This document shows positions 684 to 22,577 of a stretch of DNA of 30,392 nt, one piece after another. Every line of letters begins with the position of its first letter. Positions within the stretch are counted from its first letter, which is position 1. The notes beneath the pieces are model-generated. The model made no database searches. It saw nothing but the letters and a program-made list of their open reading frames with translations, and was not told where the DNA came from. The stretch lies in IMG/VR virus record IMGVR_UViG_3300035181_001116, positions 1-30,392 of that record. The stretch is one strand, 5' to 3'. This DNA comes from a virus. The translations under genes and the position numbers were made by a program.

Positions 684-715
684 GGCACCGGGAAGCACGT
701 GCCTATACTTTTTTT
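684..715 (+). terminator. Hairpin plus T-run facing the repressor 3' end
   Basis: GGCAC (684-688) pairs with GTGCC (699-703), followed after five bases by seven T (709-715). The T run is on the rightward strand, so it would stop transcripts entering the repressor gene from the left. The five-base gap weakens the call. Confidence 0.35.
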
Positions 716-1100
716 AAGCAGTTTGTGAGTAGTTGGATTTTTTGTCAACTGGGCCTTTCTCCAGGGAAGATATTTTCTGTTTTTGCTGCTCAACCTTTTC
801 CTCTAATAAATCAATGATTCTTTCTTTATCACGGCATCTTGGACACGAAACATTATAATTTGTGGTGCTGTCAGTAGCAGTACTTCCCTCCTGGCTTTCA
901 TTATATTCCCCATCAATCAAAAATGTATATGTTGTGTGATATATTTTAACAATATTTGATAGAATTTTTAGCGTTGGTAACTGATTTCCGATCTCTATTT
1001 GCCCCAAATTTGCCCTTTTTATCCCAACAGATGCTGCAAATTCATCTTGAGATAAATTTTGTTTAGTTCTTAATTCTCTAATTCTTAATCCAATAGACAT
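714..1100 (-). CDS. XRE-family repressor (lysogeny regulator)
   Basis: A 128-residue protein with an N-terminal XRE/Cro-CI helix-turn-helix over about residues 4-60: GLRIRELRTKQNLSQDEFA, then a recognition-helix region around IKRANLGQIEIGNQLP. A linker rich in Ser/Thr/Asn follows, then CPRC and a charged heptad-like stretch (about 88-115) that probably forms a coiled coil for dimerisation. I chose the ATG at 1098-1100 because the helix-turn-helix alignment starts there; an ATG seven codons upstream adds only MIIFFTI. The gene is divergent from the rightward early genes, with a 12+12-bp dyad in the shared promoter region, the classic layout of a temperate phage repressor. Its action as the phage repressor is inferred from position. 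Confidence 0.85.
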   Translation of the reverse strand: MSIGLRIRELRTKQNLSQDEFAASVGIKRANLGQIEIGNQLPTLKILSNIVKIYHTTYTFLIDGEYNESQEGSTATDSTTNYNVSCPRCRDKERIIDLLEEKVEQQKQKISSLEKGPVDKKSNYSQTA

Positions 1101-1125
1101 AATTGTAAAAAATATTATCAATAAT

Positions 1126-1160
1126 TGAAAGAATTTATGTCAATGTAATAAATTCTTTCA
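1126..1160. promoter_or_regulatory. Operator-like dyad between repressor and early genes
   Basis: TGAAAGAATTTA (1126-1137) and TAAATTCTTTCA (1149-1160) form a perfect 12-bp inverted repeat with an 11-base spacer. It abuts the rightward -7 box at 1161 and overlaps leftward promoter-like elements (TTGACA on the minus strand at 1138-1143, with GATAAT about 18 bases further). A repressor bound here would control both directions. Confidence 0.7.
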
Positions 1161-1168
1161 TACATTTG
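1161..1168 (+). promoter_or_regulatory. Rightward early promoter, -7 box TACATTTG
   Basis: Exact match to the Bacteroidota -7 consensus TAnnTTTG, immediately downstream of the dyad, with an expected start site near 1175 and the first rightward gene at 1205. No strong -33 TTTG is visible at the usual distance. Confidence 0.55.
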
Positions 1169-1204
1169 TTTCTTCTTAGTAACGCAAAGTTAAGGTAACA
1201 ATTT

Positions 1205-1405
1205 ATGGATTCGACACAAACAACTAAAAAAAGACAAAATAAGGATTTTGAAACCCTTGGAAAAATTCTTGGATGCAAAACCGCAGCGGCCAAAATGCGG
1301 TTTTACCGCCAAAACGAAGAGGCAATGGAAATGATGCTGAAAATAGTTGAGGCAAAAGAAAGCCTGATCAATGAGAATAGTCCCAAAGAAAGTACTAACC
1401 AATAA
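1205..1405 (+). CDS. Small early protein of unknown function
   Basis: A 66-residue, strongly charged, mostly helical protein (KKRQNKDFETLGKILGCKT near the N terminus, then a Glu/Lys/Met-rich helix). It is the first rightward gene after the early promoter and lies where Mu carries ner, a small DNA-binding regulator. The segment around residues 17-35 could be a short helix-turn-helix (GKILGCKTAAAKMRFYR), but that is only a resemblance. ATG at 1205 is about 30 bases past the predicted transcription start. The 3' end overlaps by 11 bases the end of the opposing gene at 1395-1715, so the two converge. A role as a Ner-like or antirepressor protein is inference from position. Confidence 0.6.
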   Translation: MDSTQTTKKRQNKDFETLGKILGCKTAAAKMRFYRQNEEAMEMMLKIVEAKESLINENSPKESTNQ

Positions 1406-1715
1406 AAAACAAACGATATGAAAAAAGATTCTCAATCTCCTGCTTCGTTCGAAGCTCAGTTTCCTTCAGTTTCATTTCCAGAAACTGGCTGTGACCAACA
1501 AAAGCGGGCAACTGCTTTTTATACTCGGCTAAGTTCTCAAGGAAAAATTCAAGAAACAGCCTCTTGTTCTCTTTTGAAGCACCCTGCTCCCTGTCCTCAA
1601 GTTCAACATTAAGAAATCCGAATACAATGTCCTCAAGGGCGTTCATCCTGGCATTCATTACCATAATGTTGAGGCCATTCATTACCAAATTGCTTTCAAG
1701 TTCTTTTAAATCCAT
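1395..1715 (-). CDS. Minus-strand switch-region protein of unknown function
   Basis: About 106 residues, largely helical: MDLKELESNLVMNGLNIM at the N terminus, a central EDREQGASKENKRLF, and a Leu/Glu/Lys-rich C-terminal half that could form a coiled coil. I recognise no family. Composition and codon choice look coding, while the plus-strand frame over the same bases (1418-1612) gives an unlikely Ser/Cys/Pro-rich product. It starts at the ATG ending at 1715 (one Met codon further is equally possible) and has a perfect leftward -7 box (TACATTTG, minus strand of 1743-1750) upstream. It is divergent from the transposase gene and convergent with the small gene at 1205. Position suggests a second regulator in the lysis-lysogeny switch, but nothing in the sequence shows DNA binding. 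Confidence 0.65.
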   Translation of the reverse strand: MDLKELESNLVMNGLNIMVMNARMNALEDIVFGFLNVELEDREQGASKENKRLFLEFFLENLAEYKKQLPAFVGHSQFLEMKLKETELRTKQEIENLFSYRLFFIG

Positions 1716-1718
1716 CAC

Positions 1719-1752
1719 ACTACATTTTAAGGTTTAGCAACACAAATGTAGT
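1719..1752. promoter_or_regulatory. Second dyad with opposed -7 boxes, between switch gene and transposase
   Basis: ACTACATTT (1719-1727) and AAATGTAGT (1744-1752) form a perfect 9-bp inverted repeat, spacer 16. Each arm carries a promoter-like element: TACATTTT rightward (1721-1728, one mismatch to TAnnTTTG) and TACATTTG leftward (1743-1750, exact). This suggests divergent promoters for the 106-residue gene and the transposase, with a shared operator. Confidence 0.55.
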
Positions 1753-1756
1753 AAAA

Positions 1757-1808
1757 CTCCCGGGGTCTCAAGCGCGATGCTATGGATCGAATCCTCGACC
1801 GGGAGCCA
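1757..1808 (+). ncRNA. Cloverleaf-like RNA element in the transposase leader
   Basis: An outer stem is formed by CTCCC (1757-1761) with GGGAG (1801-1805) and GGTC (1764-1767) with GACC (1797-1800), leaving GG (1762-1763) bulged. Inside are two small hairpins, AGCG-CGA-TGCT (1771-1781) and GGAT-CGA-ATCC (1784-1794). CCA follows directly at 1806-1808. It looks like a shrunken tRNA 3' half with acceptor stem, but normal D and anticodon arms are missing. It lies 18 bases before the transposase ATG, so it may control translation or be a decayed tRNA piece. Confidence 0.4.
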
Positions 1809-1825
1809 ATTAATAAAAACTGCAA

Positions 1826-3874
1826 ATGGAAATTTATAATAACACCTTATGTATTCCCGCAAATCAATACTATCATGAGTATGATCTAGGACCGGGCAGG
1901 GGAAAAGTTGTTAAGAGAAATTTTGTAAGTTATGATACTTATAAGCTTCAAAAAAAATCCAAACTTAAAATCGTCAGGCCAGGAAAAGGAGAGGGTAATC
2001 ACGCACTAATTGATTTGGAATCCATTCCCTCAAAATACCGCAATGAAATTGGAAAGCGCGAACCGAACCCGGAACTCTCCGCAGTGATCACTCCATTTAT
2101 TGACCAGGTAAAGATGGATTATGAGGCAGTAAGGTTTTATACAAATTTCAGATATCCAAACGGGAGGCCAATACCAACCGACAAAGTTGACAATATAAAG
2201 CTGTGGAGTAATAACGCAGCAATAATGAACGCCATTAGTGCCGATTACGATAAGCATGTACGCGACCGCGCTAACCAGGGCAAAGGCCCCATTAAAAGTA
2301 CCTTCTTTAAAAATCATGTGGTTCCGGTTAAGTCGAAAGAGCTAAATGATAAGTGGCCAAACAACCTGCCAACCAATGCAAGCCGGTTACAGGAGAAATT
2401 TGACGACTACAAGGAGCTTCGCTATATGGCATTTGTAAAGAACCTGGTTGGCAATGACAACGCGGTTAAAATCAACTCTAAAATTCTCGACCTGCTGATA
2501 TTCATTTCGGTAATGCCTACAAGGCCGTACACAACTGAGGTTAAAAAAGTATATGACGATTTTATGGCAGGCCGGATAGAGCTCGTTAACCATGCCACCG
2601 GTGAGGAGTATTTACCTGAAGATTACCTGGACGAAACCGGCAACGTGATACAGTTCACAGAGGCAGCAATATGGCAGCGGATTGAAAAACCTTCGCAGCA
2701 GGTTAAGGTAGATAAAAAGCGGATGGGCGCAAAGGACTTCAACGACCTGCACCGGCCACACCGCCACCGACACAGCCCGGAATACAGCTTCAGTAAAATA
2801 TCAATGGATGACCGCGACCTTGTTTGGAAGGATGCCGTTTCAAAACAGAGAGTAAAGGCTTACTACGCTTACGACGTTGCTTCCGGCTGCCGGATCGGAT
2901 CGGCATACAGCATGTTCAAAAATGAGGAGTTATTCCTCGACTGCTTGCGCGACATGTTTGCCTTTATCGACCGCAACGGTTTCGGATCGCCTTTAGAAAT
3001 TGAAGTTGAAAATCACCTGGTGAACAAGTTCTTTGATGACCTGGCAGTAATGTTCCCATACCTCACTATTTGCGCACCGGGAAACTCACAGGAAAAACGC
3101 GCAGAGCATTTCAACAGGGCAGTGAAATACCAGGTCGAAAAAAACAATCATCCCGGAATTGGCCGCTGGTGGCTTTCGTCGAAATACAACCGCATTTCAG
3201 TTGATAAGGTGAACGATCAGTTCAAGCAAAAAATGAAGATGGCCGACCGCATGATCATCGATGATATCCAGGACTCACTGGAGTACAATAATGCCCTTCA
3301 CAAAAACCAAAAGAAGTATCCGGGCATGACCCGCATGGACGTGCTAAGAGCTAACCTGAATCCGGGCCTTCCAAAATTAAACAAGCCTTTCCTGTACAAA
3401 TACATCGGTTACGAAACCGAAACAAGCATAGTCCGCAATCAGTACGTGTCGGTTCAATACGAAAAATACATGCTACCTAATCCGCGGGTTCTGGAACTGC
3501 TGGCACCAAACAACCGCAATGTTACGGCCTATTATATGCCTAACGCCGACGGAACTATCAGCGAAGTTTATCTATATCAATACGGCAGGCTCTTATGCAC
3601 ATGCGAGCGCCTGGAGACATACAACGAGTCCAAAGCTGAGCGTACCGACGTTGACGTAACCGCTAAGCTGAAGCAAGATAAGTACGTGGCTATGTTCGAC
3701 AAATACGTGAAGGATGGCACTTCAGAAATGGCAAAACTCGAAATTTTAAAGCCAAACACGGAGGCGTTCGCATCGCCGATGATAGTTGCCGACCGCAAAA
3801 CGGAACCGGACTCAGAACCGGAAAGCGATACTACCGACTACCGGCGCAAAGCAATAGACGATTTCTTTAACTAA
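1826..3874 (+). CDS. Mu-like DDE transposase (MuA family)
   Basis: A 682-residue protein, close to the 663 of Mu MuA. It joins phage ends to target DNA during integration and replicative transposition. The central part (about 320-440) is an RNase H-like integrase core: first acidic residue at ISMDDRD (D328/D329), then AYYAYDVASGCRIG, the second site at EIEVENHL (E395) and the third at SQEKRAEHFNR (E427). The 67-residue spacing between first and second sites equals that of MuA (D269 to D336). The C-terminal region (about 530-600) matches the beta-barrel domain after the core (YMPNADGTISEVYLY). The second acidic residue is Glu where MuA has Asp. The acidic C-terminal tail (656-670, DRKTEPDSEPESDTT) is a possible MuB or ClpX contact. 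The gene directly precedes the MuB-like ATPase, as in Mu. Confidence 0.93.
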   Translation: MEIYNNTLCIPANQYYHEYDLGPGRGKVVKRNFVSYDTYKLQKKSKLKIVRPGKGEGNHALIDLESIPSKYRNEIGKREPNPELSAVITPFIDQVKMDYEAVRFYTNFRYPNGRPIPTDKVDNIKLWSNNAAIMNAISADYDKHVRDRANQGKGPIKSTFFKNHVVPVKSKELNDKWPNNLPTNASRLQEKFDDYKELRYMAFVKNLVGNDNAVKINSKILDLLIFISVMPTRPYTTEVKKVYDDFMAGRIELVNHATGEEYLPEDYLDETGNVIQFTEAAIWQRIEKPSQQVKVDKKRMGAKDFNDLHRPHRHRHSPEYSFSKISMDDRDLVWKDAVSKQRVKAYYAYDVASGCRIGSAYSMFKNEELFLDCLRDMFAFIDRNGFGSPLEIEVENHLVNKFFDDLAVMFPYLTICAPGNSQEKRAEHFNRAVKYQVEKNNHPGIGRWWLSSKYNRISVDKVNDQFKQKMKMADRMIIDDIQDSLEYNNALHKNQKKYPGMTRMDVLRANLNPGLPKLNKPFLYKYIGYETETSIVRNQYVSVQYEKYMLPNPRVLELLAPNNRNVTAYYMPNADGTISEVYLYQYGRLLCTCERLETYNESKAERTDVDVTAKLKQDKYVAMFDKYVKDGTSEMAKLEILKPNTEAFASPMIVADRKTEPDSEPESDTTDYRRKAIDDFFN

Positions 3875-7306: not shown

Positions 7307-7337
7307 CACACGCTTAGATGGATATACAGCCGGGAAA

Positions 7338-7443
7338 GACCGGCACACGATTGGAAGGTGAGTAAGGTACACATATTTGCAGAAAGGTTTGTTTCCGTTT
7401 CCCTTATGCAAAACGTTCGCGGGTTCGAATCCCGCTCCGGTCA
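7338..7443 (+). ncRNA. tRNA-like element (perfect T-arm and acceptor, abnormal middle)
   Basis: The 3' part is a canonical T-arm, GCGGG (7419-7423), TTCGAAT loop, CCCGC (7431-7435), then TCCGGTC and A (7436-7443). Upstream GACCGGC (7338-7344) pairs with it in six of seven positions. The total of 106 bases is too long for a normal tRNA. The middle holds a GG..GG D-loop-like stretch, a TTTGCA/TGCAAA stem (7376-7381 with 7407-7412), and a possible anticodon loop TTTGTTT (7388-7394). It is either a decayed or rearranged tRNA, or a tRNA-mimic in the early operon leader of the next gene. Confidence 0.4.
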
Positions 7444-7468
7444 CAGCAACAAACAAACAACAAACATT

Positions 7469-7828
7469 ATGTATAAAAGTAGGCGGTTAACTCGTCTGCC
7501 TGACGAAAGTCTTCGCGAAGGGCTTGTTAAGGCAACACAGGATCAGATAGTTTTGGAAGCGCTTGCCGAATCGGGTCTTACATTCGACCAGGTTAAGGTT
7601 AAAACGCGTGTTAATAAAATAATCATGACCCGGCACATCATACATTATCTACTATCGGTAAATCCTGATCGTTCATTCCAGAGCATCAGGTTTTTATTTA
7701 ATAAAGATCATGCGACTGTTTTACATGGCCGGGACGTAATAGAGGACTTGATTGAAAACAATCGTGAGTTGAAGTTAAAAATAATAACCATATCCACTAA
7801 AATCAGAAACCAAAATGAGCAAAGCTAG
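7469..7828 (+). CDS. DnaA domain IV-like DNA-binding protein
   Basis: About 119 residues. The C-terminal two thirds resemble the DNA-binding domain IV of the replication initiator DnaA: a helix with TRHIIHYLL (54-62), a connecting SFQSIRFLF, and the signature-like KDHATVLHGRDVI (79-91), where DnaA has RDHTTVLHA. There is no ATPase part, so it is a free-standing DNA-recognition module. I start it at ATG 7469 after an A-rich leader; the frame remains open to a GTG at 7358 but those codons come from the tRNA-like element (FESRSGHS from the T-arm). It overlaps the next gene by 14 bases. It may mark phage DNA for replisome loading or compete with host DnaA at its boxes; both are inference. Confidence 0.72.
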   Translation: MYKSRRLTRLPDESLREGLVKATQDQIVLEALAESGLTFDQVKVKTRVNKIIMTRHIIHYLLSVNPDRSFQSIRFLFNKDHATVLHGRDVIEDLIENNRELKLKIITISTKIRNQNEQS

Positions 7829-22508: not shown

Positions 22509-22533
22509 AAGAAGATTATATAATTAACCGGAA

Positions 22534-22577
22534 AGGCTGTCATGTCCGTATACCGGGAAAATGACAGCCTTTTTTTT
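22534..22577 (+). terminator. Strong intrinsic terminator inside the tail operon
   Basis: AGGCTGTCAT (22534-22543) pairs perfectly with ATGACAGCCT (22561-22570), extended by AAA/TTT and followed by a T run to 22577. It separates sheath and tube, needed in many copies, from chaperone and tape measure, needed in few. Confidence 0.85.

Follow-up and report, generated by a model that had tools for sequence, protein, structure and literature searches.

RNase P measures the T-arm/acceptor stack of its substrates and cuts any RNA that presents it (PMC4919913). Phage M3 RNA, phage C4 RNA and mRNAs are among the RNAs it cleaves (PMC11143913). Here we describe two tRNA-like RNA elements in a Mu-type transposable phage, represented by the IMG/VR virus record IMGVR_UViG_3300035181_001116; the whole stretch that was analysed, positions 1 to 30,392 of that record, is called the window. 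Element 1 stands directly before a MuA-type transposase gene, and element 2 before a gene with a DnaA C-terminal helix-turn-helix (HTH) domain. We see an even chance that these tRNA-mimicking cis-elements let host tRNA-processing enzymes cleave the early mRNA immediately ahead of key genes.

Several described systems come close to this locus. M3 RNA, the C4 antisense RNA of phages P1 and P7, and polycistronic mRNAs cleaved by RNase P also carry a tRNA-like part inside a phage or operon transcript (PMC11143913), but they act as small RNAs or isolated sites, whereas the element described here recurs, with predicted cleavage, before transposase and DnaA-C genes. Phage tRNA genes (Rfam RF00005) share the acceptor stem, T-arm, T-loop and 3' RCNA, and the hankyphage and Porphyromonas phage elements described below score as tRNAs. 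In contrast, the window elements have neither D nor anticodon arms, and each stands singly in the leader of one early gene rather than in a tRNA cluster. Since both go uncalled by ARAGORN and Rfam, we class them not as tRNAs but with the tRNA-like, RNase P-type RNA elements of phage transcripts. The tRNA-like domain of tmRNA (RF00023) likewise combines an acceptor with a T-arm and has its other arms reduced. The T-arms of element 2 and of the elements in contigs L008 and L009 match the tmRNA model weakly (13-16 bits against a cut-off of 47), and, unlike tmRNA, these elements have no tag reading frame or pseudoknots. The phage Mu c/Ner switch resembles the early region of the window in its minus-strand repressor, operator region, small first early gene, and MuA and MuB homologues. 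Mu is not known to carry a tRNA-like RNA, or a minus-strand gene open to exchange, in the interval from ner to A. In the literature on transposable and Mu-like phages we found nothing specific on tRNA-like elements; hankyphage papers make no mention of tRNA, and in the Porphyromonas phage paper tRNAs come up solely as sites of integration.

A tRNA-like RNA before the transposase gene

The features on which the argument first rests are as follows.

1757-1808, plus strand: tRNA-like RNA element 1 (type A), covariance model score 75 bits; adjoins dyad 2
1826-3874, plus strand: MuA-type transposase (PHROG 310 transposase, E 5e-33); its ATG lies 21 nt past element 1

A preliminary description of this DNA had presented the region as a lysogeny switch built on two inverted repeats, dyad 1 and dyad 2, and did not mention a GC-rich structure that adjoins dyad 2 at 1757-1808. 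This structure consists of an acceptor-like stem (CTCCCGG/CCGGGAG), a mini-hairpin (AGC-GCGAT-GCT) and a T-arm-like hairpin (GGATCGAATCC), followed by GCCA. Ten copies of this type, called type A, fold as a three-way junction, in which the acceptor-like stem has 8 bp and is joined by a mini-hairpin and a hairpin of 4 bp, and then end in RCNA; the 4-bp hairpin has the loop GAUCGAAU and stacks on the 3' strand of the acceptor. With a covariance model built from these ten copies, without elements of other phage groups, all known type A copies score 75-110 bits (E 1e-16 to 1e-25) in nine contigs. Reading 1757-1808 as an intrinsic terminator was rejected, as the plus strand lacks a T-run behind the structure and on the minus side there is no more than TTTT. 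The type A consensus found only short chance matches in the GenBank phage and plasmid collections.

Pairing is complete in the nine main-type copies, where 126 of 126 helix cells are paired (120 Watson-Crick and six G-U). The six G-U cells would become A-C mismatches on the opposite strand, which makes it likely that the element works as plus-strand RNA. The acceptor stem shows one G-C to A-U double change. In addition, the mini-hairpin stem is AGC/GCU in the window and, by a compensatory change, GGC/GCC in the third element of contig L021 (2602-2653), which belongs to the same sub-type as the window copy. That L021 element has neither a dyad nor a minus-strand gene, and the tRNA-like part is thus separable from dyad 2. 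The stack of about 12 bp on which an RNase P substrate is recognised is made of 8+4 bp in main-type A and of 7+5 bp in element 2, with an RCCA-like 3' end.

An alternative is that the elements are decaying phage tRNA genes, or captured host ones, with no present role. tRNAs are frequent in phages, and the hankyphage and Porphyromonas copies are near-complete tRNAs while the others have lost the D and anticodon arms. Against decay, acceptor and T-arm pairing has been retained while the other arms vanished, the 126 paired cells include G-U pairs that only the sense strand can form, single phages (L020, L021) have more than one copy, and position and sense orientation are the same across many phages. 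We therefore hold a relic to be improbable.

Element 2 and counterparts in other phages

A second element of different sequence, type B, lies further along the early region, between DUF3164 and the DnaA-C gene.

7329-7446, plus strand: tRNA-like RNA element 2 (type B)
7469-7828, plus strand: gene with a DnaA C-terminal HTH domain (Bac_DnaA_C, E 2e-9); its ATG lies 26 nt past element 2

Element 2 opens with a 5' hairpin, GCCGG-GAAAGA-CCGGC (7329-7344), followed by the acceptor GATTGGA (7349-7355)/TCCGGTC (7436-7442) and a canonical T-arm, GCGGG-TTCGAAT-CCCGC, and then ACAG. Against the tmRNA model the T-arm reaches E 0.0005, which falls short of the gathering score. A functional anticodon stem with a 7-nt anticodon loop is absent from both window elements. 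Element 2 is syntenic in L005 and L006, which are the same contigs as L004 and L003, respectively; its placement before the DnaA-C gene is syntenic in four phages, with L043, L006 and L044 keeping the synteny. The L020 phage has a tRNA-like element unrelated in sequence before a DnaA-C-like gene. The elements of L007 and L009 follow a hairpin that has the GAAAGA loop on stems of other sequence, and in L008 this hairpin is visible by eye.

The equivalent position in other transposable phages holds true tRNA matches. In hankyphages L011, L030, L031 and L032, the transposase is preceded by an HTH gene, and directly upstream of this HTH gene lies a tRNA-Arg-like gene; ARAGORN calls tRNA-Arg in L030, L031 and L032. 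In Porphyromonas transposable phages, a tRNA ends about 16 nt before the transposase ATG.

L031 1767-1850, L030 1965-2048, L011 1751-1834: hankyphage tRNA-Arg(cct)-like gene
L013 1949-2019, L034 2414-2484, L033 2415-2485: tRNA of Porphyromonas transposable phages

The Rfam tRNA model (RF00005) scores the hankyphage elements at 42-47 bits and the Porphyromonas elements, which have irregular anticodon arms, at 43-50 bits, so that together they span 42-50 bits against a cut-off of 29. In the annotated records, both are missing from the annotation. Among non-members, the type A model ranks the Porphyromonas elements first (E 0.005-0.06, these being rough E-values). Shortened versions were found in gut phages (L007-L009 and L039) and in Elizabethkingia phage L012.

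A list of 24 elements was assembled by seeking such structures in leaders, and counts from it describe this set rather than an unbiased survey. Every one of the 24 runs in the sense direction, and 23 retain C74. The distance from the end of the element to an ATG downstream is 13-32 nt in 22 of them and 46 and 60 nt in the other two. The T-arm motif GGNTCGANTCC gave 12 matches in 13 records and none with a reversed control, and a fully paired acceptor plus T-arm structure occurs four times in 1.5 Mb of base-shuffled sequence. A T-arm match in G003 was set aside as a host tRNA adjoining an integrase.

The constant place before a start codon also suits another explanation, in which the tRNA-like RNA is a 5'-leader control element whose fold stabilises the mRNA or binds a protein, such as EF-Tu or the first early protein, and so sets transposase translation. 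EF-Tu, like the processing enzymes, reads only the acceptor and T-arm, and the side arm and T-loop of type A are near-invariant beyond what pairing needs. A mere hairpin would have no need of the conserved 3' RCNA, however, and very different sequences fill the same position in other phages. Such a leader is an unlikely explanation on this balance, though we place a protein-binding leader ahead of the relic, and the relic ahead of the recombination site considered below.

Proposed processing of the early transcript

We favour cutting by tRNA-processing enzymes. The decoding half has been lost while the acceptor/T-arm stack and 3' RCNA are kept, which fits enzymes that read only the upper half of a tRNA; as RNase P cuts RNAs presenting this stack, we propose that it processes the early transcript. 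The RNA would retain only the parts that such enzymes read, namely an acceptor and T-arm stack of about 12 bp, a T-loop-like loop and the 3' RCNA. Once the early operon is transcribed, host RNase P would recognise the mimic and cut the polycistronic early mRNA, probably joined by RNase Z or another 3' nuclease. The downstream gene would then sit on a message whose leader is short, unstructured and A-rich, and the message upstream would finish in a tRNA-like end. Such processing sites are proposed just before both the transposase and the DnaA-C genes.

The anatomy of the elements is well supported, the comparisons above showing conservation of sequence and structure, strand, position, recurrence and true tRNA matches at the equivalent place elsewhere. 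That the RNA is made and processed, and that this affects transposase expression, we infer.

Several observations count against processing as the explanation. Type A covariation is thin, as shuffle controls reach the pairing and covariation of A7 in 15-23 of 500 cases; the type A copies are too alike, so covariation lends modest support. The folding energy of the window copy has a z of only -1.55. The type A loop is AUCGAAU and not UUCRANN, and its T-stem has 4 bp in a shifted register. ARAGORN calls no tRNA in the window, and Rfam finds no tRNA or other known RNA there at gathering score (and none credible in L015). Winogradskyella phage Peternella has no tRNA-like element, so the device is not universal, and MT835523 (L040) has at best a very degenerate one.

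At 2065-2250 of L040, a possible degenerate tRNA-like structure (TGCAAG..CTTGCA-CAA) stands before the transposase.

More broadly, and with slightly less confidence than in an even chance, we suggest that transposable phages of Bacteroidota punctuate their early operon by tRNA mimicry, before the transposase and the DnaA-C gene, ceding mRNA maturation to host RNase P and RNase Z, and that in one lineage the mimic has become joined to a promoter serving exchangeable accessory genes. If so, an abundant group of gut and environmental phages, the widespread hankyphages among them, would share a recurring RNA device that ties transposase expression to host tRNA maturation. The tRNA-like device was passed over in the published annotations examined, and it can serve annotators as a landmark of the early operon.

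Dyad 2 and the portable module

Element 1 of the window forms part of a larger unit, whose left edge is dyad 2.

1719-1752, no strand: dyad 2, conserved cassette edge; contains the minus-strand -7 box TACATTTG (1750-1743)
1395-1715, minus strand: accessory open reading frame (ORF) of 106 aa at a variable position; no recognisable regulator

Dyad 2, ACTACATTT-N16-AAATGTAGT, is the perfect 9+9 repeat that had been reported. Its arm length was reached in 4 of 1000 local shuffles, and inverted repeats with arms of at least 9 number 23 in the window against 4.6 expected; taken alone, dyad 2 is only moderately unusual. Its sequence, CACTACATTTTAAGGTTTAGCAACACAAATGTAG, is identical at 34 of 34 positions in L003 and L004, despite an unrelated adjoining minus-strand gene in both, and it is unchanged in L003 although the transposase there belongs to a highly diverged family. 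Diverged copies are found in L015, L016, L018, L020 (twice) and L021 (twice).

Dyad 2 and element 1 lie within a module of about 90 bp that occurs in nine phage contigs, in some of them twice. Pattern scans add copies in L015, L016, L018, L020 (two, 450 bp apart), L021 (two) and L022. L017, L019 and L023-L028 were dropped, as they matched one pattern with the rest of the module missing, and a core motif match inside a tape-measure-like gene of L041 was taken as chance. To the left of each copy, a minus-strand ORF of 64-165 aa begins at a near-constant distance; to the right, a plus-strand ORF begins after 13-27 nt (once 60 nt) and encodes a transposase, a ParB-like protein or another early protein, one of them of 75 aa. 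The minus-strand proteins are mutually unrelated except those of L016 and L021/L022 (E 1e-8), and every relative has an unrelated ORF where the window has the 106-aa one. Neither an HTH nor another known domain was recognised in the 106-aa protein, and Pfam and PHROG gave no match to it; modelled from its single sequence, it forms a helical coiled-coil that resembles nothing in the PDB significantly. We read the module as two-sided, with a promoter-like box on the left facing a swapped minus-strand accessory gene, and on the right a cis-acting plus-strand tRNA-like RNA directly before an early gene, here the transposase. The left-hand box, TACATTTG, is a conserved promoter-like element of the module (TACCTTTG in L020, TACATTTA in L018). 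A plus-strand promoter inside dyad 2 was considered and dropped, its box not being conserved (TACATTTT, TACATGTT, TTCATTTA).

Between two module copies, L021 encodes (at 1430-2344) an early protein of 304 aa in which pentapeptide-type repeats, NSGDL/NSGDR, follow one another in a long run.

The preliminary description took dyad 2 for the operator of a second lysogeny switch, with the 106-aa protein or the repressor as its ligand, and suggested two regulators and two decisions. Two features speak for this: dyad symmetry is partly kept in distant copies, and a small inverted repeat, GTT..AAC, at the dyad centre covers the putative start site of minus-strand transcription. Nevertheless, dyad 2 stays constant while the adjacent minus-strand genes are swapped, so their products cannot be its conserved ligand; no conserved regulator is linked to it, and the minus-strand ORFs have no DNA-binding domain. 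In L004, dyad 2 is unchanged even though both the minus-strand gene and the HTH of the repressor differ. The module also stands before the ParB-like gene and the 75-aa gene, and as it occurs twice in one phage, dyad 2 belongs to a portable cassette, whose distribution a regulator-operator pair specific to the window cannot explain. Two regulators and two decisions are thus not borne out, and we consider a second operator very improbable. On these comparisons, dyad 2 is the edge of a portable cassette with a putative tRNA-like RNA and not a dedicated lysogeny decision, and it should not be modelled as a lysogeny operator.

A portable cassette could also be a DNA-level site of recombination or cassette exchange, att-like, which would explain the gene swaps on both sides. 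A near-identical element flanked by unrelated genes, the two copies 450 bp apart in L020, the three elements of L021, and the common use of tRNA T-arms as att sites all speak for this. However, no recombinase is linked to the copies, the fixed orientation toward start codons and the sense-strand G-U pairing point to RNA, and L021 has an element with neither dyad nor minus-strand gene. Moreover, homologous exchange between repeated elements explains the swaps without a dedicated site. An exchange site is accordingly an improbable alternative, and RNA processing remains the reading we prefer.

Dyad 1 and the early region

The phage is of Mu type. Pfam and PHROG searches of the window give a MuA-type transposase (PHROG 310) and a MuB-like ATPase (PHROG 296) behind an XRE repressor (HTH_3) and a small early gene, together with DUF3164. 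Its annotated relatives are phages of Bacteroides, Porphyromonas, Elizabethkingia and Winogradskyella, and a Bacteroidota host is therefore likely. Queries with the transposase, repressor and 106-aa protein found no relatives in the viral contig collection, and scans of the genome contig collection for the window's own family found none either. The remaining features are listed here.

714-1100, minus strand: XRE/CI-type repressor, 128 aa from ATG (Pfam HTH_3, E 9.1e-11; PHROG transcriptional regulators)
1126-1160, no strand: dyad 1 (O1), a perfect palindrome of 13+13 overlapping the -33 region of the early promoter; probably the operator of the repressor
1161-1192, no strand: face-to-face promoter boxes, known from sequence; both motifs recur in L004 (TATATTTG / TAACTTTG)
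1205-1405, plus strand: first early gene, 66 aa, in the Ner position; 82-86% identical in L003 and L004
3895-4827, plus strand: MuB-like ATPase (DNA transposition protein; PHROG 296, E 1e-31; AAA_22)

The gene order had been read correctly, with the XRE repressor (minus), 66-aa gene (plus), 106-aa ORF (minus) and transposase (plus), as had the convergence of the two small ORFs, which overlap at 1395-1405. The product of the 66-aa gene, 82% identical in L004, has a weak Myb-like match (E 0.005) and a helical model.

Dyad 1, TGAAAGAATTTAT-N9-ATAAATTCTTTCA (1126-1160), is indeed a perfect repeat, with arms one pair longer than the 12+12 first given, that is, 13+13. No such repeat arose in 1000 dinucleotide shuffles of the intergenic region that holds it, and about 0.05 repeats with arms of at least 12 are expected in the entire window. 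The palindrome is lost in L004, whose repressor (106-495) shares a nearly identical C-terminal tail and 3' flank with that of the window (714-1100) but has a different HTH half; L016 and L020 have different palindromes at this position. Since the palindrome changes along with the DNA-binding half of the repressor, dyad 1 is plausibly the ordinary operator of the XRE repressor, as predicted from sequence. The O1 half of the proposed switch thus stays plausible, given the HTH_3/XRE repressor (Pfam E 9e-11), the strong palindrome over the -33 region and the small gene in the Ner position, and this region requires no novel kind of switch.

TAnnTTTG boxes are present at the dyads as described, though the plus-strand box of dyad 2 is imperfect. 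At dyad 1, TACATTTG at 1161-1168 (plus) would serve the early operon, and TAACTTTG at 1192-1185 (minus) is a candidate for the repressor gene; at dyad 2, TACATTTG lies at 1750-1743 (minus) and only TACATTTT at 1721-1728 (plus). Within each region the two boxes point toward one another instead of diverging back to back; with 1161-1168 and 1192-1185 so arranged, the early and repressor transcripts would overlap.

Some further observations concern these sequences. The boundary of a domain swap between the window and L004 falls inside the repressor gene. In L040 (MT835523; 1795-1850), a minus-strand gene has the same TACATTTG box beside a different hairpin, CTATTCC/GGAATAG followed by T5. The window has a further perfect 12+12 inverted repeat with a 17-nt spacer at 22532-22572, where about 0.05 of that size are expected window-wide, and three tandem 13-bp repeats, ACTAAGGGGGTAT, at 426-464, near the left end of the record.

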